Of a DNA stretch of 64,000 nt, positions 23-25,219 are shown piece after piece. The position numbers were made by a program, and so were the translations under genes. This DNA is from an uncultured Armatimonadota bacterium (GTDB taxonomy: Bacteria > Armatimonadota > Armatimonadia > Armatimonadales > Armatimonadaceae): the NCBI GenBank assembly GCA_903910385.1, contig CAIVZM010000018.1, positions 186,001 through 250,000 of the forward strand, written 5' to 3'. The notes below the pieces were generated by a model, which was not told the origin of the DNA, made no database searches, and saw only the letters and a program-made list of their open reading frames with translations. Each line of letters opens with the position of its first letter. Position 1 is the stretch's first letter.

Positions 23-1273
23 ATGTTAACCATCGAGAAATATTCTATCGGCGTCGGCGACCGTTTCGCGCATCAGGCGAAAGCGCAACTTGCCGCCTGT
101 ATCAAAACCGCCGAAAACGGCGTCGCCGTCGTTCCCGTCTGGAACAAGTCCAACCGAGAACACCTGACCATCGGTTCCGAACCCGAGTCCGTGCGAATCG
201 CGGCGGATCGTGCGGTAAAAGAACTGGGTTGGACGCAAAATTACTACGTCGATGCCGACCATATCGGTTTACAGACGGTGGATCGCTTTCTGTCTCACGC
301 GGATTTTTTCACCATCGATGTCGCTCATGCTATCGGGCAACCGGCGGATGTGGACGCCCTCAAAAACTTTACCGATAAGCATTCGGTTCTGGCAAAAACG
401 CTTTCTATACCGGGAATCTCTGAGCCCTCCGATGTGACGCGGGCGGATATAGAACGAATCGCCGGTAAGTACCTTGCGGCGGTGCAGGAAGCGGGACGCA
501 TTTATCGTTACATCGCGGAGGCAAAGGGAGTCGGGAATTTCATCACGGAAGTTTCGATGGATGAAACGGACGCCCCGCAGACGCCGCTGGAACTACTGGT
601 AATCCTTGCCGCAATCGCCGATGAAAAGATCCCGATCCAGACTATCGCTCCCAAATTCACCGGGCGATTCAACAAAGGGGTGGATTATGTCGGCGACCTG
701 GCGCAGTTCGAGAAAGAATTCAACGACGATGTGGCTGTGTTGAGCTTCGCTATCGCGGAATTCGGGCTTCCGGCAAGTCTCAAATTGAGCGTTCACTCTG
801 GCAGTGACAAGTTCTCGCTGTACGCGCCGATCCGACGCGCCCTCCAGCGCTTTGATGCCGGCGTCCACCTGAAGACGGCGGGAACGACCTGGCTGGAAGA
901 AATTATTGGTCTGGCGGAATCCGGCGGCGACGGTCTGGAGATCGCGAAAGAAGTGTACGCACACGCCTTTGAGAAAAGCGAAGCCCTCTGCGCTCCCTAC
1001 GCCGCCGTCATCGATATCGATCTGGTGAAACTCCCCACACCGGAGACGGTAAATTCCTGGGATTCCGCGCAATTCGTCGCCACGTTGCGCCACGATTCAA
1101 AAAATTCGGCTTTCAACCCATCGTTCCGCCAACTGATCCATGTCGGGTACAAAGTCGCCGCTCAAATGGGCGACCGCTACCTGAACGCTCTGGAAGCGAA
1201 CGAAGAAGCGGTGTCCCGCAATGTCACCTTCAATCTTTATGAAAGGCATCTCAGACCGCTTTTCCTCGGCTGA
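23..1273 (+). CDS. uxaE: Tagaturonate/fructuronate epimerase (UxaE family)
   Basis: Protein of 416 aa covering the whole UxaE family. Members epimerise D-tagaturonate and D-fructuronate at C4, which lets galacturonate enter the mannonate branch of hexuronate catabolism. The N-terminal stretch (VGDRFAHQAKAQL, then VWNKSNREH) and the VDADHI and FTIDVAH segments are family-like. The enzyme is cytoplasmic and metal dependent in characterised members. It is the first gene of an apparent operon; the SDR gene starts 26 bp downstream. Only 22 bases lie upstream in the window, and they show no clear Shine-Dalgarno. The assignment rests on overall sequence resemblance and on the neighbouring sugar-acid enzymes; the direction of the reaction in vivo is inferred. 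Confidence 0.85.
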   Translation: MLTIEKYSIGVGDRFAHQAKAQLAACIKTAENGVAVVPVWNKSNREHLTIGSEPESVRIAADRAVKELGWTQNYYVDADHIGLQTVDRFLSHADFFTIDVAHAIGQPADVDALKNFTDKHSVLAKTLSIPGISEPSDVTRADIERIAGKYLAAVQEAGRIYRYIAEAKGVGNFITEVSMDETDAPQTPLELLVILAAIADEKIPIQTIAPKFTGRFNKGVDYVGDLAQFEKEFNDDVAVLSFAIAEFGLPASLKLSVHSGSDKFSLYAPIRRALQRFDAGVHLKTAGTTWLEEIIGLAESGGDGLEIAKEVYAHAFEKSEALCAPYAAVIDIDLVKLPTPETVNSWDSAQFVATLRHDSKNSAFNPSFRQLIHVGYKVAAQMGDRYLNALEANEEAVSRNVTFNLYERHLRPLFLG

Positions 1274-1299
1274 GCGTTTTTCTCACGACTCTATATCTT

Positions 1300-2109
1300 A
1301 TGACAAATCTTTTTGATCTCTCGGGCGAAGTGGCGGTTGTACTGGGCGGAACCGGCGGGCTGGGCGGAGCGATGGCGGAAGCGCTTGCCTCCGCCGGGGC
1401 GTCCGTAGCCGTACTGGGCCGCAATGCGGAACGAGGCGAGGAACGTGTTCAGGTTATCGAGCAAGCGGGGGGCGTCGGAGCGTTTTTCATGGCGGACGCT
1501 CTGAGTTCCGACTCACTGACAGCGGCGCGAGACGCCATCCTGAATAAATGGGGACGGTTGGATATTCTGGTCAATGCGGCGGGCGGAAATCGCCCGGACG
1601 CTACCCTGCCTCCCGGCGCAGATTTTTGCAAACTGCCGGGGGAAGCATGGAACGAAGTATTCGATCTGAACCTGACCGGCGGCGCTCTGTTACCCTGCCA
1701 GATTTTCGGCGAGACGATGCTGGCAAAGGGCAAAGGTAGCATTATCAATATCGCTTCGCTTTCAGGAATGACTCCGCTTTCGCGTGTAGTAGCATACTCG
1801 GCGGCGAAAGCGGCGGTTCTTAATTTGACGCAGTTTCTGGCGCGAGAATGGGCGACTAAAGGAATCCGCGTCAATGCGATCAGTCCTGGCTTCTTTCCCG
1901 CAGAGCAGAACCGCCGTCTCTTATTCAATGAGGACGGCAGTTACAGCGCACGCGGAGGGCAAATTATCGGGCATACCCCGATGGCGCGGTTCGGCATCCC
2001 GGAGGAACTGGCAGGGACAGTCGTTTACCTTGCTTCCGACCGGGCTTCCGGATTTATTACCGGGCATAATCTGGTCGTGGACGGCGGTTTCTCGGTAACG
2101 ACGATTTAA
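1300..2109 (+). CDS. SDR-family sugar-acid reductase, probably fructuronate/mannonate oxidoreductase
   Basis: Classical short-chain dehydrogenase of 269 aa. The Rossmann glycine motif GGTGGLGG is near residues 16-23, the NAAGG motif near 90, the catalytic serine lies in IASLSGM, and the Y166-x3-K170 pair is in AYSAAKAAV. The C-terminal GHNLVVDGGFSV is typical of the family. Next to UxaE, the likely job is NAD(P)H reduction of D-fructuronate to D-mannonate, a step done in many bacteria by SDR enzymes of this type rather than by UxuB of the E. coli kind. A gluconate 5-dehydrogenase-like activity cannot be excluded. It sits 26 bp after uxaE and 10 bp before the LarA-type gene, consistent with one transcript. 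Confidence 0.82.
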   Translation: MTNLFDLSGEVAVVLGGTGGLGGAMAEALASAGASVAVLGRNAERGEERVQVIEQAGGVGAFFMADALSSDSLTAARDAILNKWGRLDILVNAAGGNRPDATLPPGADFCKLPGEAWNEVFDLNLTGGALLPCQIFGETMLAKGKGSIINIASLSGMTPLSRVVAYSAAKAAVLNLTQFLAREWATKGIRVNAISPGFFPAEQNRRLLFNEDGSYSARGGQIIGHTPMARFGIPEELAGTVVYLASDRASGFITGHNLVVDGGFSVTTI

Positions 2110-2119
2110 GCGAAACAAC

Positions 2120-3442
2120 ATGAGCGAAACAAACCAGAGAACAGGCGGAGTCTCCGTTTCCACAGGGGAAGCGGTGGGTTTCGGGGGCGCGGATCGTACC
2201 CTTACCGTGGAGGAAGTGCAGGATATCGCCGTCCGTGCGCTTACCCCGCTTGCGCTGACCGGCAAGCGCATCCTCCTGATTATTCCCGATGCGACGCGTA
2301 CCGCACCGGTCGGTCTGATGTTTCGCACCCTTTTCGATGTTCTGACGGATATCGGCGCAAAACTCGATATCATCATCGCTCTGGGAACGCATCCCCCCAT
2401 GTCAGAAGATGCCATCAACAAGCGTCTGGAAATCACGGCGGAAGAGCGGGCAGGTCGGTATCAGAGCGTCCGAGTCCTCAACCATGCCTGGGACAATCCA
2501 GAAGCCCTCGCTTCTATAGGCATGATTTCCGCTGATGAGACAGCAGCGCTGACCGACGGACTGTTTTCTCTCAATGTCCCCGTAACTATCAATAAGGCGA
2601 TTTTCGATTATGACCGTCTGATCATTATTGGGCCGACATTCCCGCATGAGGTCGTCGGGTTTTCCGGTGGCAACAAGTATCTCTTTCCCGGTATCAGCGG
2701 CCCGGAGGTATTGAATTTCTTCCACTGGCTGGGCGCAGTCACCACAACCCCCAAAATTATCGGGCGGAAATGGACGGCAGTACGCAAAGTCGTTGACCGT
2801 GCAGCGTCGCTCGTTCCGATTCCTCGAACCGCTTTCTGTCTTTCGGTCAACAATCGGGGCGAACTGGCGGGGCTTTTTGCCGGGACTCCGGAAGCAGCCT
2901 GGTCGGAAGCGGCGGATCTTTCCGACAAGCTTCACGTCATTTATAAGGAAAAGCCATTCCACACTGTCCTTTCCTGCGCCCCGCCCATGTACGATGAGGT
3001 CTGGGTCGGGGGTAAGTGTATGTACAAACTTGAACCCGTAGTCGCTGATGGCGGCGAGTTGATCATTTACGCACCTCATATCCATGAAATCTCGGTGACG
3101 CACGGAGCCGCAATCGAGCGGGTAGGCTACCATGTTCGGGATTATTTCCTCAAGCAGTGGGATCGATTCAAAGACGAGTCCTGGGGAGTTCTCGCACATT
3201 CCACTCATGTCCGTGGCATCGGGTCTTATGAGGACGGAGTGGAAAATCCCCGTATTACTGTCACTCTGGCGACTGGGATCCCTGAGGAAGTCTGCCGACG
3301 TGTCCAATTGAATTACCGCGACCCGGCAAGCATTCGCCCCGCCGATTACGCCAACCGCGAGGATGAAGGGGTGTTGTATGTTCCCAAAGCGGGCGAAATG
3401 CTGTATCGGCTTTCTGATCCGCCAGAATGGGCGCGAGAATAA
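2120..3442 (+). CDS. LarA-type nickel-pincer racemase/epimerase homologue
   Basis: Protein of 440 aa with the lactate racemase (DUF2088) domain. LarA enzymes racemise or epimerise 2-hydroxy acids with a nickel-pincer nucleotide (NPN). Expected residues are present: the GTHPPM histidine, the PHEVVGFSGGNK block holding a ligand histidine and the lysine that binds NPN, and the FFHWLG histidine. No larB, larC or larE cofactor genes lie in the window, so cofactor synthesis must be encoded elsewhere. Placed in a hexuronate operon, a C2 epimerisation of an aldonate such as mannonate/gluconate is more likely than lactate racemisation; this is inference. The start ATG at 2120 follows the SDR stop by 10 bp and lacks an obvious Shine-Dalgarno. 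Confidence 0.85.
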   Translation: MSETNQRTGGVSVSTGEAVGFGGADRTLTVEEVQDIAVRALTPLALTGKRILLIIPDATRTAPVGLMFRTLFDVLTDIGAKLDIIIALGTHPPMSEDAINKRLEITAEERAGRYQSVRVLNHAWDNPEALASIGMISADETAALTDGLFSLNVPVTINKAIFDYDRLIIIGPTFPHEVVGFSGGNKYLFPGISGPEVLNFFHWLGAVTTTPKIIGRKWTAVRKVVDRAASLVPIPRTAFCLSVNNRGELAGLFAGTPEAAWSEAADLSDKLHVIYKEKPFHTVLSCAPPMYDEVWVGGKCMYKLEPVVADGGELIIYAPHIHEISVTHGAAIERVGYHVRDYFLKQWDRFKDESWGVLAHSTHVRGIGSYEDGVENPRITVTLATGIPEEVCRRVQLNYRDPASIRPADYANREDEGVLYVPKAGEMLYRLSDPPEWARE

Positions 3443-5177: not shown

Positions 5178-6296
5178 TCACCGTATTCGGTAAAAGTGTC
5201 GGAGGGCGTTGCGAATTTTTGCCGGGCGCTGAATGGCGTCCCGAACCGAGGGAACGGCATCAGGATACGTCAGACGAGACCCGGTGTGCAGATCGGCGAC
5301 CAGAGACGCGAACAGAGCGGCATCGGGAGCGGGAGCGTGTCCGCCCAGAGCGGGAAGCTTGGCGGCGGCGGAGAGACGCAGTGTGGAGAGCAGAGTCAAC
5401 GCTTCTGCGGCGTCCAGACGGTCTGCACGTTCGATACGCGTCCAGGCGTCGCGGGCATTCTGGACGATGCGAGCGGTGTGCAGTTCCGCGATCTCACGAC
5501 GGGCAGCGCGTTCGGCGGCAATCAGGTAGTCCACTACCGGGCGGACGCGTCCCGCAATATGCGCCGATGGCAGACCGAAGGTGAAGGCATTCGAGACCTG
5601 GAACAGATGTCCCGCCGCCTGCGTCCCTTCGCCGTGCGCTCCTCGGATCGAAATATCCAGCGTGTGCGCCGCCTGCAATGTATCGAGCAGGCGTCCCAGA
5701 AAAGCGAGCGCTGGCAGATGCGTCAACACGGAGACGCGCATTCCCGCCCCCATATTGGTCAGTGAGGCGGTCAGAAATCCCCAGCGAGCGTCACGGGCGT
5801 AAGTCAATCTGCGTACCAATCGGTCGTCGACGTCCTCAGCGGAACGTAATGCCGCTCCCATCGCGTTTCCGGCGGCGAGCGCCTGAATCCGAATATGGTC
5901 TTCCTCGTTGATGAAGATAGAGAGATATCCCGCTTCATCCAGAAGGGCGTAGCGGTTTGCGCCCGCCGATGCCAGTTCAGGTGAAATGCGTCGAGCGTCC
6001 ACTAAATCCGCCCGATCCCGCGCCGTCAATGAGGACACCGTAACCTGCGCCAGATCAGCCAATCGCTCATTGTCTGCCAGGGCGGCGCGGCGGACTTCCT
6101 GCGCCACTCGTCGTAAATCTCGTTCGGAAGCCTGTTGCGGAAACGGGAAATCCGCCAGATTTCGCGCCAGTCGCGCCCGTGCCGAAAGCGCTACATCGCT
6201 GTCCGGCGCAGTTGCCGCTTCAGTCGCCCAGACGGGGGCTTTGAGATAGGGAGCCAACGCGCCTCGTGTGGCGGCATCGCGGTCAGAAGAGGTCAT
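5178..6296 (-). CDS. McsB-like ATP:guanido phosphotransferase (protein arginine kinase family) with altered catalytic cysteine
   Basis: Protein of 372 aa from the ATG at 6296. Family landmarks are present: SARARLARN at about 38-46, the invariant INEEDHIRIQ block at about 129-138, RGAHGEGT at about 218-225 and the QVSN segment near 233. McsB enzymes phosphorylate arginines of target proteins for ClpCP degradation. The usual LTACPTN motif reads LTASLTN here, so the family's reactive cysteine is Ser178 and the following proline is lost. No mcsA, ctsR or clpC flank the gene. It could have altered activity or be a pseudo-kinase. A TACAAT box lies 11 nt upstream of the start (6308-6313), giving a leader of only a few nucleotides. 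Confidence 0.85.
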   Translation of the reverse strand: MTSSDRDAATRGALAPYLKAPVWATEAATAPDSDVALSARARLARNLADFPFPQQASERDLRRVAQEVRRAALADNERLADLAQVTVSSLTARDRADLVDARRISPELASAGANRYALLDEAGYLSIFINEEDHIRIQALAAGNAMGAALRSAEDVDDRLVRRLTYARDARWGFLTASLTNMGAGMRVSVLTHLPALAFLGRLLDTLQAAHTLDISIRGAHGEGTQAAGHLFQVSNAFTFGLPSAHIAGRVRPVVDYLIAAERAARREIAELHTARIVQNARDAWTRIERADRLDAAEALTLLSTLRLSAAAKLPALGGHAPAPDAALFASLVADLHTGSRLTYPDAVPSVRDAIQRPAKIRNALRHFYRIR

Positions 6297-6401
6297 GGCG
6301 TGGTTGTATTGTACCCGTTTTTTGTAGAGCATTGATACAGGAAAGTACGGTCGGTTGATAAATATGAAACGGCAACGACGTAATGGGGTACTAATAGGTG
6401 T

Positions 6402-7304
6402 ATGACCACGCCAGAAAGACATTCCCCTGCTGCACCGCACGGTCCGCATCGGCATGACCCCTCTCTAGACTCAACAGAAGAAGCTATTGAGGAAACGGTC
6501 AGCGCCGCTGGTGAGGGATTGATTCTGTGGCCTCGTCTGGCGGCGCAAGCGTTCGTAGCGATGTTCGTTTATCTGGGAGAAATCGTTGCGCTTCTGGGTC
6601 AGACCTTGGTTGCTCTACGACGCGGCGTCAATGTCAATGACCTTGTCCGACAGATGTCGGTAATCGGCGTTGAGACAGTCCCTATCGCTCTGATGACAGT
6701 CGGGTTTTCAGGGGCGGTTTTGGCGTTGTATAGCGTGGATTCCCTGCGGCGATATGGCGCAAGTAATCTTGTTGGCGGTATTGTCGCGATTGCGATTGTA
6801 CGCGAGACCGGACCGATTCTGGCGGGTGTCGTCACGGCGGCGCGAGCGGGGTCTGCTATGACAGCGGAAATCGCCTCCATGAAAGTATCCGAGCAGATTG
6901 ACGCTCTGCGCACTATGGCGGTATCACCAATTTCTTATCTGGTGTTGCCTCGTACTCTGGCAAGCTTTCTGGTTCTGCCGCTTCTGGGGATACTCTCGAA
7001 CGTTGCGGGCGTCATTGGCGGTTCGCTTGTCGCAGCGGCGAACGGCGTTCCTTATACCGCGTACTTTAATTCGATACACCTGATTCTCTGGGCGGACGGA
7101 CGCGATGTGACGCGCGGTCTGTTCAAAACCTTCTTCTTTGGCATTATCGTCGCTCTGGTCGGCTGCCGCGAGGGATTGAACACCTCAGGAGGAGCGGTTG
7201 GGGTTGGTAAAAGCACGACACGTTGCGTTGTTATTTCTATCGTGCTGATTTTTGCCGCGAATTTCTTTCTATCGTTTCTCCTGTTTCAAAGCGGTCTTTT
7301 CTAA
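6402..7304 (+). CDS. mlaE: MlaE-family ABC transporter permease
   Basis: Integral membrane protein of 300 aa with the MlaE/DUF140 permease domain from about residue 50 onward. Typical segments include VIGVETVPIALM, the RETGPILAGV motif near 140 and EQIDALRTMAVSP. A charged N-terminal extension (residues 1-45) carries several acidic residues. With the next two genes it forms an MCE-type transporter that moves phospholipids or other lipids between inner and outer membranes. The ATPase gene begins 3 bp after its stop. The upstream region is shared with the divergent McsB-like gene; TACTAAT lies 6 nt before the ATG. Confidence 0.93.
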   Translation: MTTPERHSPAAPHGPHRHDPSLDSTEEAIEETVSAAGEGLILWPRLAAQAFVAMFVYLGEIVALLGQTLVALRRGVNVNDLVRQMSVIGVETVPIALMTVGFSGAVLALYSVDSLRRYGASNLVGGIVAIAIVRETGPILAGVVTAARAGSAMTAEIASMKVSEQIDALRTMAVSPISYLVLPRTLASFLVLPLLGILSNVAGVIGGSLVAAANGVPYTAYFNSIHLILWADGRDVTRGLFKTFFFGIIVALVGCREGLNTSGGAVGVGKSTTRCVVISIVLIFAANFFLSFLLFQSGLF

Positions 7305-17390: not shown

Positions 17391-20300
17391 ATGAGCGACA
17401 CAACGGAAAAGCCAGTCTTCTTTGACCCTACCCAGCGGCGAACAATCTACTTCACCAGATTTCTGGCTATTGCAGGATTTACAGCGACGATAGTTCTCAC
17501 CATTTTCTGGGCAAGCGTCCTTACTGTCCCGGTATCGCATCGCATCCGGTTGAACGCTCCGCGTTTTCTGCCCGATAACGCTTTACGCGCCGCCGCTACT
17601 CTGGATCGGAAACGGAGTGCAAAAACGCCCCGCGAGGATACCCGGAGAGTACATAAACATTCCGTGCCGGTAAAAGCGCCGATCCTTTCGAAATCCTCGC
17701 GATATGACGCCCAGAATCCCATTATCGGCGCATTTTATGTCAGCTGGGACGAAGTAAGTCTGGCATCGTTACGGCAACATGCCGGGGAATTGACGCATCT
17801 CTTTCCGGGCTGGCTGCATCTCGATAACGATGGCGGACGCTTGATTATCACCGATAATGACAACGCCGATATTGAGGCTCGCCGCATCGCACAGGAAAAA
17901 CATCTGACCATCGTTCCCCTGCTCAACAATTTCAGCGCCGATATCAACGATTTTGAGGAATCCCGATTACACGCTCTACTCATCAGTCCCGAAAAACGAC
18001 AGAAGGTCGCAATCCAGATTCGGGATTATCTTTTGCAAAACGGATATGCTGGGATCAATATCGATCTTGAGACGGAAGATGAAGACGACCGGGCGCTGCT
18101 GTCAATCTTCACAGCGGAAGTTGCCGCCGTCCTGCGGCCCGCTCACCTTCTGATTTCGCAGGACATTCAGGTTGGCGATGGCGAGGAGAACAGCGCCATC
18201 GCCAGTTCCTGTGATTTTGTCGTTCCGATGATCTACGACTTGCACTACGCCGGAGGCGAGGCAGGCCCAATTGCGCCGCAGGAGTGGGCGCAACAGGAAC
18301 TGGATAAGGTTCTGAAAACCATTCCCGCGTCGAAAGTCGTTCTCGCCATTGGTAACTACGCCTATAACTGGGAGCGAGGCAAAATCGGCGCTCAAACTCT
18401 GACCTTCGGAGAAGCCATGGCTACCGCTCGGGAATCTCTGGATTCCGGGGAATCGCCCGTCCGGTTTGACCGGGAAACGCGCAATCCTACCTTTTCCTAT
18501 ACGGAAAGCGATGGCAAGCGGCATGATGTCTGGCTTCTGGATGCAGCGACCGCTTACAACTTTCAGCGATATGCCGCCGAAAAAGGCGTCAACGGGCGGG
18601 CTTTATGGTACATCGGTTCGGAAGATCCCACACTGTGGACGTTTTTTGGCAAAGGCAGACGCCCGCAAAGCCCGCAGTCACTTTCCATTGTCCGTTACGG
18701 CTTCGAGATCGATTTTGAAGGCGAAGGTGAGATTCTGGATATCGTCGCGCAACCGCACGCAGGGAAGCGGACTCTCGACGTTGCGTCCAATGGCGTGATC
18801 GTCAACGAAAGTTTTCTTTCCTATCCATCCACTTATATCGTCCGCCGCACGGGGTGGAACCGGGACGCGAAGGGGAAACTGGACAAGCGTCTCGCCCTTA
18901 CCTTTGACGATGGTCCGGATATCAACTGGACACCGCAAGTCCTGAATGCCCTCAAGAAGGCGGATGTCCCTGCCACTTTTTTCGTCATCGGCGAGTATGT
19001 GGAATCGTACCCGGAACTCGTCCGACGCGAATGGGATCAAGGTCATGAAATCGGCAACCACTCTTTCTATCATCCTAATCTGGCGCTGGTGAGCGGAACG
19101 CGAGCGAATCTGGAAATCAGCGCCACGCAACGTGCCATTCAGGCGGCGACAGGCCGTTCCACAACACTTTTCCGTCCTCCTTACGGTGTGGACGTTGAGC
19201 CATCCACCGTATCAGATTTGATCCCTGTGGAAGAGGCGGAAAAACTCGGTTATGTGACCGTAGCGGAGGGAATCGACCCGAAAGACTGGCATCTTCAGGA
19301 TCATCCCACGCCCGAAATTATCGCGCAACGCATCATTGACGGCGCTCATTCCGGGCAGGGCAATGTTGTCCTGTTACACGATAGCGGCGGCGACCGCGCC
19401 GCTACTGTTGCCGCCATTCCCCTTTTCGTTCAACGACTGAAGGCGGAAGGGTACACGTTCGTCCCAGTCTCCGCGCTCATTAGCGGAGCGCGACGGGATA
19501 CCATCATGCCCCCGGTTATCGGACGTGAGGCATGGGTCGCTCTGGTTGATCGCCAGGTGTTCGGCATCACACGGCGAACCATTGAGACCGTGACATTCCT
19601 GTTTATCTTTACGCTGATCGCCGGGACGATCCGTCTGATTTTTGTCGCCGGCCTGGCGGTGGCGCAGAAGAAACAGGAGCGTCAGTCTCTGACGGACCTC
19701 GATGCCTCAGGAGCGACGCCAACAGTTTCTGTGATCATCGCCGCCTATAACGAAGAAAAAGTCATTGCTCAAACAGTTCGCGCCCTGCTGGACGGCGGTT
19801 ATCCACATCTGGAAGTTATCGTTGTGGATGACGGTTCGCGAGACGGAACGGCAAAAGTGGTAGCGCAGGAATTTGCGACTGATCCGCGAGTCCGCCTGAT
19901 TGTCAAAGAAAATGGCGGTAAGGCATCCGCTTTGAACCGGGGCATCACACTGGCGACGGGCGAAGTTCTGGTCGGGTTGGATGCGGACACGCTGTTCGCA
20001 CCAGACACCGTCCACCGATTGGCGCGTCACTTCGCAGATCCGAGCGTCGGTGCGGTGGCAGGCAATATTGAGGTCGGCAACCGCATTAATCTTCTGACTC
20101 GCTGGCAGGCGGTGGAGTATGTCACATCCCAGAACTTCGACCGTCGCGCCTATGCGATGCTGAATTCCGTCCCGGTCGTGCCCGGTTGTGTGGGGGCATG
20201 GCGAGCGAGCGCCGTGCGTGAGGCAGGGGGCTATGAGAGCGATACGCTGGCGGAGGATGCAGACCTGACCTGGCGCGTCCGTCGTCAGGGATGGCGCATC

Positions 20301-20801
20301 GTGACGGATGCGACCGCCCGCGCCTATACCGAGGCGCCCGATAAGTTGCGCGACCTGATGAAACAGCGCTACCGCTGGACCTTTGGAACGTTACAGACGC
20401 TCTGGAAACACCGTGATATCTGCTTTCGGCCCCGATACGGGTGGTTTGGCTGTCTGGTAGTTCCCTCGCTGTGGATTTTTCAGATCGTTCTGCCGCTGGT
20501 GCTTCCGTTCGCCGATATCGGTCTGATTCTGGCAGCGCTTTCCGGAAGTCTGAATCAGGCGCTCCTCTACTTCGCGTTTTTCTTTTGCGCCGAATTCCTT
20601 GCCGCGTACCTTGCCTTTCGGATGGACAACGCCTCTTGGTCGCGCCTCGCCGATCTGCGTTACCTGTTTTTGCAACGCATCGTCTGGCGTTATCTGCTTT
20701 TCTGGACGCTGGTTCGCGCCCTGACAGCGGCGATGCGAGGGGGAAGAAACGGGTGGAACAAACTGGAGCGCAAGGGGACTGCGGTAGTCCGAAACACGTA
20801 A
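17391..20801 (+). CDS. Trifunctional membrane protein: GH18-like + NodB polysaccharide deacetylase + GT2 glycosyltransferase
   Basis: Protein of 1136 aa. A membrane anchor (about 22-45) leads to a GH18-like domain (about 108-420) with GINIDLE and catalytic-type E227. A NodB domain follows (about 500-690; TFDDGP at about 504, H-x3-H in GNHSFYHP at about 556). After a transmembrane segment (about 728-755) comes a processive GT2 domain (about 775-1000; VVDDGS, DADT, EDAD, QRYRW) and C-terminal membrane helices. The arrangement suggests synthesis, export and trimming or deacetylation of an extracellular beta-linked GlcNAc-type polymer by one polypeptide. GT2 would be cytoplasmic and the other domains external. 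The upstream 170 bp is AT rich and promoter-like. Confidence 0.9.
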   Translation: MSDTTEKPVFFDPTQRRTIYFTRFLAIAGFTATIVLTIFWASVLTVPVSHRIRLNAPRFLPDNALRAAATLDRKRSAKTPREDTRRVHKHSVPVKAPILSKSSRYDAQNPIIGAFYVSWDEVSLASLRQHAGELTHLFPGWLHLDNDGGRLIITDNDNADIEARRIAQEKHLTIVPLLNNFSADINDFEESRLHALLISPEKRQKVAIQIRDYLLQNGYAGINIDLETEDEDDRALLSIFTAEVAAVLRPAHLLISQDIQVGDGEENSAIASSCDFVVPMIYDLHYAGGEAGPIAPQEWAQQELDKVLKTIPASKVVLAIGNYAYNWERGKIGAQTLTFGEAMATARESLDSGESPVRFDRETRNPTFSYTESDGKRHDVWLLDAATAYNFQRYAAEKGVNGRALWYIGSEDPTLWTFFGKGRRPQSPQSLSIVRYGFEIDFEGEGEILDIVAQPHAGKRTLDVASNGVIVNESFLSYPSTYIVRRTGWNRDAKGKLDKRLALTFDDGPDINWTPQVLNALKKADVPATFFVIGEYVESYPELVRREWDQGHEIGNHSFYHPNLALVSGTRANLEISATQRAIQAATGRSTTLFRPPYGVDVEPSTVSDLIPVEEAEKLGYVTVAEGIDPKDWHLQDHPTPEIIAQRIIDGAHSGQGNVVLLHDSGGDRAATVAAIPLFVQRLKAEGYTFVPVSALISGARRDTIMPPVIGREAWVALVDRQVFGITRRTIETVTFLFIFTLIAGTIRLIFVAGLAVAQKKQERQSLTDLDASGATPTVSVIIAAYNEEKVIAQTVRALLDGGYPHLEVIVVDDGSRDGTAKVVAQEFATDPRVRLIVKENGGKASALNRGITLATGEVLVGLDADTLFAPDTVHRLARHFADPSVGAVAGNIEVGNRINLLTRWQAVEYVTSQNFDRRAYAMLNSVPVVPGCVGAWRASAVREAGGYESDTLAEDADLTWRVRRQGWRIVTDATARAYTEAPDKLRDLMKQRYRWTFGTLQTLWKHRDICFRPRYGWFGCLVVPSLWIFQIVLPLVLPFADIGLILAALSGSLNQALLYFAFFFCAEFLAAYLAFRMDNASWSRLADLRYLFLQRIVWRYLLFWTLVRALTAAMRGGRNGWNKLERKGTAVVRNT

Positions 20802-22139: not shown

Positions 22140-22683
22140 AACCGGACGCCTTTCTCTCCAGCGCAGACGATGTTTCCGCCATGGAGATGCTGGCGGCGGT
22201 CTTTTTGCGAGAATATTTCTGCGATTTGAAAGTGATGTTTCCCGCTAATCGCCTCCCATATTGCGCAGCCAGCGCACCCGCTTCTTTTTCGGGTCAATGG
22301 AGGCGATTTCGGGGACGTCGATACTCCAGCGCTCCGCTTCTAACGGGATCATTTCTAACGGGATCACGGCGGAGGGGTGATCATTCTCCGAGACAATCTC
22401 GATGGTAACCTTGAGGACGCCGTGAATCGCCTCTTTCTGGATAATCGCCCCGGATAATCGCCGCCTTCTCTGTCCGAATGAAAAGTATGCAGGGAAGCTA
22501 CTCATGGTTCCTGATGACTTTCACCGGGGTACGCGCCACTGGAACGTGACCCTATTGGCGATGACTCATGTAGGAGCGCAGGCCTGTTGCCGAGACGGGC
22601 GGTCACATTACTCTTTTTTTGGAGTCTGTGGAGTGAAGGCGACATTTCAGGTAAAATGGTGCGTTTGACGGAGAACCTTTGTA
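22140..22683. other. Intergenic region with two short tandem duplications
   Basis: About 540 bp between the SDR and ion channel genes. It contains a weak minus-strand open frame (22245-22505), a 15-bp direct repeat (TTCTAACGGGATCAT at 22340-22354, repeated from 22355 with a different last base) and a 13-bp tandem repeat (22439-22464). The channel gene's promoter is probably near 22652 (TAAAAT), with GGAG close to the start codon. Confidence 0.6.
22245..22505 (-). CDS. Possible small hypothetical protein or gene remnant
   Basis: Open frame of 86 aa. The C-terminal half (TIEIVSENDHP, then ERWSIDVPEIASID and RVRWLRN) has protein-like composition. The first 20 residues are arginine rich and not protein-like. 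A 13-bp tandem duplication (22439-22464) falls exactly at this change and a 15-bp duplication adds the repeat IPLEMIPLE. The present frame may therefore be a damaged version of an older gene. No family recognised. Confidence 0.3.
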   Translation of the reverse strand: MSSFPAYFSFGQRRRRLSGAIIQKEAIHGVLKVTIEIVSENDHPSAVIPLEMIPLEAERWSIDVPEIASIDPKKKRVRWLRNMGGD

Positions 22684-23835
22684 ATGCTGTTTCTCGTGCA
22701 CTTCCGCATTCGTCACAAGGTGGGAGGCTCACTCAGTAAGCGTCAACTTTCTACTACCCTCTTCGCTTTCGCTATTTTCTGGCTTTTCTCCGGACCTAGT
22801 GTCGCTCATGCAGGATTGGAGTTGTCCGAATCCTTTCTGGAACCGCCGCAGGTTGACAAACCGACCCCCGTCAAGATGTACCTCTATCTGGATGACGTTA
22901 ACCGAATTGATGTCTCCACGCATACATACGAAGTCACCGCTCAGTTAGTGATGGAATGGCAGGACGCTCGCGTCTCTTCTCTCTTCAAGCCCGGCAACCC
23001 CGAGTCGGTACTGGAATTTGAAGGCGTCGAGGCTGTAGAAATCATGAAAAAGCTCTGGCATCCTGAGGTGGAAATCATGAACGAACGAGGGGAACGGAAA
23101 ATAGGCGTCCGAGCGCTGGATATCCATCGCGACGGCCGAGTCAGTGTCTACGAAAAGTTCGACAGTCAGGCGCATCTGGAAGGGGATATGTTTTATTTCC
23201 CTTTTACGGTGGCGGAGTTGCGGTTGGCTTTCAACGCCTTTGAGCAGGATAAGAGCGAGATGGAATTGCAACCCGCAAAATTCGAATCTCAGTCTGGCGC
23301 GACCATGGACGATGTCATCATAGGTCCCTGGAGTTACTTGTTAAAAAGTACCGAAACAAAGACGACTCACCGTTCCAATGAACCCAACCGCAAATACTCC
23401 CGCGTTGATTTTTTACTGAAAGTCCGGCGCGATCTGATTTCAGGCATTTCCATCGCCCTTTTACCCATTTTACTTATCTGGGTCTGTTCGTCAGCGTTAC
23501 TTTGGATTGATGCGGCGGAGTTCAGTTCCTATGGGAGTCCACGTATCGGCGGACTACTGACGCTACTGCTGACTTGCGTTACGCTTCAGTTGACTATGGA
23601 ATCCCGTCTTCCCAGCGTCTCTTACCTTACTTTGCCCAACCTCCTGTTTTATGAGACCATCGTGCTGCTTACGGCGGGCATCTGCCTTTCTGTGGTCTAT
23701 GTCCACCGTTACCATCGTGTGTCGAAAGAAAAGGCTCGCGCCTTTGACCGCACCTTACGCATCACGTACCCTATCGTTGCTGTGACGGTCTTCATTCTGG
23801 CGCTCATCGTTTTTGCTTTTCAAACTCGACTTTAG
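22684..23835 (+). CDS. Bacterial pentameric ligand-gated ion channel (Cys-loop receptor family)
   Basis: Protein of 383 aa. A signal peptide ends near residue 42 (VAHAG). An extracellular beta-sandwich follows (about 50-245) with YLYLDDVNRID and a WQDAR segment typical of the ligand-binding domain. Four membrane helices are M1 (about 250-272), M2 (about 285-310), M3 (about 313-338) and M4 (about 358-380). M2 and the M2-M3 loop (MESRLPSVSYLTLPNLL) match the GLIC/glycine receptor pattern. By alignment to GLIC, M2 has Ser at -2', Arg at 0', Thr at 6' and Leu at 9'. There are no Cys-loop cysteines, as in other bacterial members. The ligand is unknown. Confidence 0.88.
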   Translation: MLFLVHFRIRHKVGGSLSKRQLSTTLFAFAIFWLFSGPSVAHAGLELSESFLEPPQVDKPTPVKMYLYLDDVNRIDVSTHTYEVTAQLVMEWQDARVSSLFKPGNPESVLEFEGVEAVEIMKKLWHPEVEIMNERGERKIGVRALDIHRDGRVSVYEKFDSQAHLEGDMFYFPFTVAELRLAFNAFEQDKSEMELQPAKFESQSGATMDDVIIGPWSYLLKSTETKTTHRSNEPNRKYSRVDFLLKVRRDLISGISIALLPILLIWVCSSALLWIDAAEFSSYGSPRIGGLLTLLLTCVTLQLTMESRLPSVSYLTLPNLLFYETIVLLTAGICLSVVYVHRYHRVSKEKARAFDRTLRITYPIVAVTVFILALIVFAFQTRL

Positions 23836-24457: not shown

Positions 24458-25219
24458 TTACTGACGGGGGTCGAAGTTACCCTGGTAGACTCCCTGTTCC
24501 GGCTTCTGGAACCAGACTTGCGACCATCGGTGGAATTTGCTATGTCCGTCCATAAAGACATAGTTCGCCCCGCCGGTGTGACGTCGCAACGCCAGTTCCG
24601 TTGTTTCCTTGTTAGCGGCATCCCATGTCATTCCCTGCATAAAGGGATTGAATTGCGGATTGGGCGGCGTTTCCTGATCGCCATTCCAGTTGTAGGGTGC
24701 GAAGTGATCGCGAGTGATATTCTTTGCACTCTCGGCTAATGCGATGACGCTTGCCGGGGACTGCACCGACGCCAGATTCCCGTAAGAGTTTCCCCCGGCA
24801 ATGTAGGCGTTGATGAAGTACGAAGAGCGCCGTAACCCATCCTGACCGAAGCCCGGATTGGAGAGAGGCATTGTCCAGTTGGTGGAATCATCCGAAGGAC
24901 AGCGATAAAGCTGACGGTTTTTGATATAGGGCTGAACCTGATCTGTCCATGTATTCGCCTCAACAGGGAAACTGAGCAGAGGAAGGTTTTCTTCGTTGTC
25001 CTGAGCGTACATCATGAACGCGATTCCTACCTGCCGTCCGTTCGAAAGGCAGGAAACAGATCGCGCTTTTTCACGGGCTTGCGCAAAGACCGGGAAGAGA
25101 ATGGCGGCGAGTATCGCTATTATCGCGATGACGACGAGAAGTTCGATGAGCGTAAACGCCTGACGATTGAGTGACGCAAACCCGTCCTTACGACGGAGAA
25201 ATGGGTGGAATATTAACAT
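24458..25219 (-). CDS. Pilin-like secreted protein, DUF1559/H-x9-DG type (second copy)
   Basis: Protein of 253 aa. The prepilin leader ends before FTLIELLVV (phenylalanine at about 22), followed by the hydrophobic helix, [22 protein letters not shown] and the C-terminal H-x9-DG motif ([15 protein letters not shown]). It is paralogous to the protein at 15956-16684: the first 40 residues after the cleavage site are nearly identical, while the globular domains diverge. It is likely exported and processed by a prepilin peptidase encoded elsewhere. It is co-directional with the YkgJ gene 18 bp downstream. Confidence 0.9.

Follow-up and report, generated by a model that had tools for sequence, protein, structure and literature searches.

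Among the genes of the window, that is, the whole stretch of 64,000 nucleotides that was analysed, one had been read from the sequence as coding for a Cys-loop receptor homologue with an anion-channel-like pore. This raises the question whether the encoded protein, P0001, is a bacterial pLGIC, whether its pore would pass anions, and in what respect it differs from the channels already known.

Identification of P0001 as a Pro-Loop pLGIC

The protein P0001 matched the Pfam profile Neur_chan_LBD with 49.8 bits (cut-off 26; 3.7e-13), and GLIC was its top PDB sequence match in phmmer (1e-19 over residues 53–377). The AlphaFold2 monomer model, based on an alignment of 50 sequences, had a mean pLDDT of 90.8 and matched ELIC, GABA-A and GlyR chains in Foldseek (E about 1e-24, probability 1.00). 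Against NCBIfam NF033918 (LGIC_1) the score was 82.9 bits, under the curated 500-bit cut-off. Residues characteristic of the superfamily are also present, namely P173 (the invariant proline of the Pro-loop), P261 in M1 and P310 in the M2–M3 loop. P0001 is a genuine bacterial pLGIC, beyond chance, and the layout proposed for it (beta-sandwich and four helices) is borne out by Pfam, phmmer, AlphaFold2 and Foldseek, with the signal peptide recognized by eye (Table 1).

Table 1. Coordinates of the P0001 gene and of the protein features discussed in the text (window positions).
Feature	Position	Strand	Basis
pLGIC subunit gene P0001, 383 aa, ATG at 22684	22684..23835	+	ORF list, Pfam, phmmer, AlphaFold2, Foldseek
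GGAG, candidate ribosome-binding site 10 nt upstream of ATG	22670..22673	+	by eye
Signal peptide, residues 1–43 (h-region 22–40, cleavage VAHA/G)	22684..22812	+	by eye; AF2 helix 19–35, lower confidence
Extracellular (periplasmic) ligand-binding beta-sandwich, residues 53–249, zero cysteines	22840..23430	+	Pfam PF02931 at 53–250; DSSP of model
V77, site of the beta1-beta2 turn acid (GLIC Asp31 in PMC4778918)	22912..22914	+	alignment
Pro-loop FPFT, residues 172–175, T175 in place of the conserved Asp	23197..23208	+	alignment
R249, pre-M1 arginine, kept in P0001	23428..23430	+	alignment
M1 helix, residues 251–272, P261 kink	23434..23499	+	AF2 model
M1–M2 linker, residues 273–285 (LWIDAAEFSSYGS), contains D276 and E279	23500..23538	+	survey, AF2 model
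M2 pore helix, residues 286–306	23539..23601	+	ungapped count, AF2 model
M2–M3 loop LPSVSY, residues 309–314	23608..23625	+	translation, alignment
M3 helix, residues 317–346	23632..23721	+	AF2 model
M4 helix, residues 348–382; short M3–M4 connection, prokaryotic type	23725..23829	+	AF2 model

The designation as a Cys-loop receptor homologue holds for superfamily homology and fold, but not for the flanking cysteine pair. Indeed, the sole cysteines of P0001 (C268, C298 and C333) all sit within membrane helices and no Cys-loop disulfide pair is present, so that P0001 is a Pro-loop pLGIC; strictly speaking, the name Cys-loop receptor does not apply to it. The same lack of Cys-loop cysteines, together with the domain order and a short M3–M4 connection, is shared with GLIC, the proton-gated cation channel of Gloeobacter violaceus, which differs from P0001 (about 23% identity) by Glu-2', a 6-residue linker between the M1–M2 tryptophan and position 0', and an intact Asp-Arg-Asp network. 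The closest fold match was ELIC, the amine-gated cation channel of Erwinia (4.9e-25), in which the beta1-beta2 acid is likewise missing (Thr in ELIC) but which carries an acidic pre-M2 residue (FSERLQ) and keeps both the Pro-loop Asp and the pre-M1 Arg.

P0001 Forms a Small Clade with Two Cyanobacterial Proteins

About 80 bacterial pLGICs were collected by genome searches of the phylum of the window and of several other phyla; 79 of them had a readable M2, and reduction to less than 60% identity left 59 representatives. In a tree built without the linker columns and without positions 175 and 249, P0001 grouped with L065 (genome G706) and L083 (genome G1551), both from Cyanobacteriota, in one clade with an SH-aLRT of 100 and a stem of 1.22. 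When the sister proteins were used as phmmer queries, P0001 was matched at 1e-68 and 1e-43, the best non-members at 1e-28 and 1e-30. P0001 belongs, therefore, to a small, deeply branching pLGIC clade, whose traits as described below rest on three known members. Identity among these is 25–35% (34% between P0001 and L065), and pore-lining positions, the Leu9' gate, the invariant Pro-loop proline, the M1 and M2–M3 prolines and open frames are all kept; intact frames across such divergence argue for function.

A pLGIC of any kind was found in 3/291 genomes of the window's phylum, and none in the family and order relatives listed among them. An order-wide genome search revealed no further clade member, a scan of genome contigs with alignment A1 gave 9 loci, all distant, no relative came up when viral contigs were scanned with A1, P0001 and A3, and tblastn of P0001 against plasmids and phages gave no match. 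A pLGIC-like hypothetical protein was seen on a plasmid of Legionella adelaidensis (NZ_LR134418.1:289439-290233; tblastn 6e-4 to L083). Since the nearest relatives are cyanobacterial, the P0001 gene was probably acquired horizontally. Its GC content (50.6%) is the lowest among the 41 window ORFs compared and its GC3 and codon distance are ordinary, so that no strong compositional sign of transfer, and just a weak one, was found by these measures against the window ORFs.

In the window the gene is isolated, flanked by a short-chain dehydrogenase gene and a convergent CxxCxxCC gene. The latter is adjoined by a prepilin-like DUF1559 protein with an N-terminal methylation motif (24458-25219, minus strand), and at 17391-20801 (plus strand) a 1136-aa fusion of a GH18 domain, a polysaccharide deacetylase and a family 2 glycosyltransferase is encoded. 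A conserved gene neighbourhood was rejected: L065 lies in a sulfatase/DUF1254 cluster and L083 beside a nitric oxide (NO) synthase, with no neighbour in common. In the region surrounding the sister gene of genome G1551 (L111:2411-11909, minus strand; pLGIC at 6025-7287), the neighbours lie on the same strand as the pLGIC. On one side there is a 1499-aa NO synthase fusion (NOS oxygenase, flavodoxin reductase and a weak N-terminal globin), and on the other genes for a GAF protein, a solute-binding protein and an MscS channel fused to globin. A link of this cluster with NO/arginine signalling involving an ion channel is possible.

Most of the Coupling Salt Bridge Is Lost in the Clade

In GLIC, a branched salt bridge joins the beta1-beta2 acid to the Pro-loop Asp and the pre-M1 Arg; in pLGICs outside the clade, this network links the ligand-binding domain to the pore. 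Asp mutants of ELIC and GLIC give no activation, the GLIC D31A mutant is silent, and the pre-M1 Arg-to-Ala change leaves ELIC non-activating and GLIC not expressed (PMC4778918). The Pro-loop motif [F/Y]PxD reads FPFT in P0001 and YPYG and FPFS in its sisters, with T, G or S at the Asp position. This Asp is kept in all 75 other surveyed bacterial sequences, in GLIC and in GlyR (56/59 representatives), being missing in the three clade members only; in a 561-sequence inventory the position is Asp in 93% and Glu in 3%, and exceptions are few but known (PMC4795631). The beta1-beta2 acid position, acidic in most other sequences, is occupied by V, L and L in P0001, L065 and L083, respectively. The pre-M1 Arg, 94% conserved across the superfamily, is retained in P0001 as R249 and replaced by His in both sisters, the residue of L065 being also readable as Glu owing to a one-residue insertion.

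Judging from these alignments, two to three components of the bridge are missing in the clade, and the best reading is that of divergent pLGICs with putatively altered gating coupling. R249 of P0001 may pair with another acidic residue. What makes P0001 distinctive is less its pore than its coupling interface.

Pore Register and M1–M2 Linker

M2 positions were numbered by an ungapped count backwards from the M2–M3 proline, with P310 as 23'. This places S285 at -2', P286 at -1', R287 at 0', G289 at 2', T293 at 6', L296 at 9', T300 at 13' and E306 at 19', with no acidic residue from -3' to 0'. The AlphaFold2 models, obtained separately for P0001 and for L083, both start M2 at the -1' proline (P286 and P322, respectively). 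The original reading of M2, with Arg at 0', Leu at 9' and no glutamate at -2'/-1', is confirmed by count and model alike, and in neither of the two models is a glutamate moved into the -1' ring. A shifted register was accordingly rejected.

The stretch from W274 to 0' comprises 12 residues, as compared with 8 in 63/79 surveyed sequences and the 6 of GLIC; a linker of this length was seen in P0001, L065 and L083 only. The two sisters also share with P0001 the Pro-1' and the loss of the Pro-loop Asp, but differ in having no Glu either in the linker (Lys replaces Glu279) or at 19', in carrying Lys/Arg at positions 15' and 20', and in lacking the pre-M1 Arg. A separate group in the survey (L069, L045, L049, L051 and L056) has a 15-residue M1–M2 linker with EAFEL before M2 and an M2–M3 loop without the usual LPxxY form. 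At another locus two pLGIC reading frames lie in tandem (L067:2-1042 and 1105-2172, minus strand) and might encode a bacterial heteromeric pair.

Ion Selectivity

Some of the pore features that had been taken as pointers to an anion channel proved to be widespread. A basic 0' and Leu9' do not discriminate, being conserved at 79% and 75%, in anion and cation channels alike, in the 561-sequence set, whose authors regard the pre-M2 stretch as insufficient for predicting selectivity in prokaryotes (PMC4795631); in our survey they occur in 36/59 and 46/59 representatives. The nearness of LPSVSY to LPKVSY had been offered as a further hint, but LPKVSY itself, identical to that of the glycine receptor, is found in bacterial pLGICs, and LPSVSY was rejected as a glycine-receptor trait; the LPxVSY form is common among them. 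Nor is a missing acid at -1'/-2' unusual by sequence, as had been supposed: Asp or Glu is present at one of these positions in 40/79 surveyed sequences and 33/59 representatives, and missing in 39/79 and 26/59 (about 44%).

The acidic filter at -1'/-2' is present in every known cation-selective pLGIC (PMC9897478), and the alpha7 nAChR is turned into an anion channel by three changes, that is, removal of the Glu, addition of a Pro and Thr13'; with the Glu removed on its own, or removed together with Thr13', it stays a cation channel (PMC6800317). P0001 matches all three changes (no Glu, Pro-1', Thr13'), and in the survey the triple is found in P0001, in L083 and in a cyanobacterial group with the pre-M2 sequence IIPQIT, together with its relative L061. 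The prediction of anion selectivity thus retains the missing acidic filter, Pro-1' and Thr13' in its favour, but Glu306 (19'), the linker residue Glu279 and an M2-region net charge of -1 oppose it. Because the anion-type signs are offset by these, the selectivity of P0001 cannot be told from sequence alone; anion permeability or selectivity would be plausible, at a little under an even chance.

That P0001 is a true anion-selective channel working like GlyR or GABA-A is the alternative that fares best, a serious possibility that nevertheless stays short of probable. It agrees with the absence of acid from -3' to 0', with Pro-1' and with the pore set G2' T6' L9' T13', since GlyR alpha has the same T6', L9' and T13' (and G2' in alpha1), an Arg0', no acidic filter and an LPxVSY loop; the M2 of the sisters is net positive, and GlyR and GABA-A chains stand beside ELIC in the Foldseek list. 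Arg0', Leu9' and LPxVSY are, however, non-diagnostic, and GlyR alpha differs by its PAR sequence (Pro-2', Ala-1'), Arg19', Cys-loop disulfide and intact FPxD. P0001 has S-P-R at -2'/-1'/0', which departs from the strict metazoan A[R/K] (PAR) motif, and Glu instead of Arg at 19'. In the tree, GlyR falls outside the clade and is not its sister, with the reservation that GlyR sits on a long branch and that the deep forks are poorly supported.

Less likely, and on the whole rather doubtful, is an ordinary proton- or ligand-gated pLGIC, cation-permeable or poorly selective, in which the pre-M2 acid is simply missing and Glu279, Glu306 and an acidic periplasmic vestibule give cation preference. This would fit the charges of P0001, as its M2-region net charge equals that of GLIC (+2 in L065 and L083, as in GlyR) and its ECD net charge of -9 is GLIC-like (survey median -10; -2 in L065 and +1 in L083). 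It would fit as well the frequency of filterless sequences among the representatives, with no known anion selectivity, and the failure of Glu neutralisation alone to invert alpha7. It conflicts with the retention of the acidic filter in all known cation-selective pLGICs, with Pro-1' and Thr13', which follow the anion conversion rule, and with the Lys for Glu279 and Lys/Arg at 20' of the sisters. A degenerate or repurposed pLGIC with no pore gating, either a periplasmic sensor or a channel constitutively closed after the loss of the bridge, is unlikely, for although ELIC and GLIC mutated at the Asp or the Arg fail to activate or to be expressed and P0001 is a singleton missing from every sampled family and order relative, the frame is intact, the four-helix pore domain is modelled with high confidence, the Leu9' gate and the M1 and M2–M3 prolines are kept, and pore-lining positions are conserved in the clade at 25–35% identity.

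The cyanobacterial IIPQIT group (L060 and L099–L109, Cyanobacteriota) is fairly common and has Thr13' and, in most members, Arg19'. Like P0001 it has no -1'/-2' acid, Pro-1' and Thr13', and unlike P0001 it has a linker of usual length, Gln0', Arg19' and the Pro-loop Asp. On these residues it fits the eukaryotic anion signature better than P0001 does and is the better anion-channel candidate.

Proposed Mechanism and Implications

Overall, we slightly favour the reading of P0001 as a member of a pLGIC clade without acidic filter, with a longer linker and a lost bridge, which opens via non-ionic contacts and is likelier anion-passing or weakly selective. P0001 would form a homopentamer in the cytoplasmic membrane, its binding domains facing the periplasm, where a ligand at the subunit interfaces would trigger the opening of the Leu9' gate; non-ionic packing contacts among FPFT, the M2–M3 loop and the pre-M1 segment would replace the ionic bridge, and the open pore would be likelier anion-passing or weakly selective than strongly cation-selective. 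As to the ligand, Arg77 and Arg105 of GLIC bind carboxylates (PMC7336382) and align with Arg138 and Lys158 of P0001, for which reason a small carboxylate is possible, as a lead and not a result. The stronger version of this reading, that the clade both opens without the near-universal Asp-Arg bridge and has among its members the first prokaryotic pLGIC with native anion selectivity, is improbable as a whole.

To our knowledge, the prokaryotic channels whose testing is described in the literature consulted, GLIC, ELIC, sTeLIC and DeCLIC, are cation-selective or classed so, and experimentally proven anion selectivity in a prokaryotic pLGIC would for this reason be new. With about 44% of the sampled non-redundant bacterial pLGICs lacking the acidic cation filter, candidates for anion channels are many. 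Few pLGIC residues are conserved as strongly as the Pro-loop Asp and the pre-M1 Arg, and ionic coupling through them is regarded as necessary for opening. A natural clade without these residues offers a direct test of whether ionic coupling is obligatory or one solution among several.
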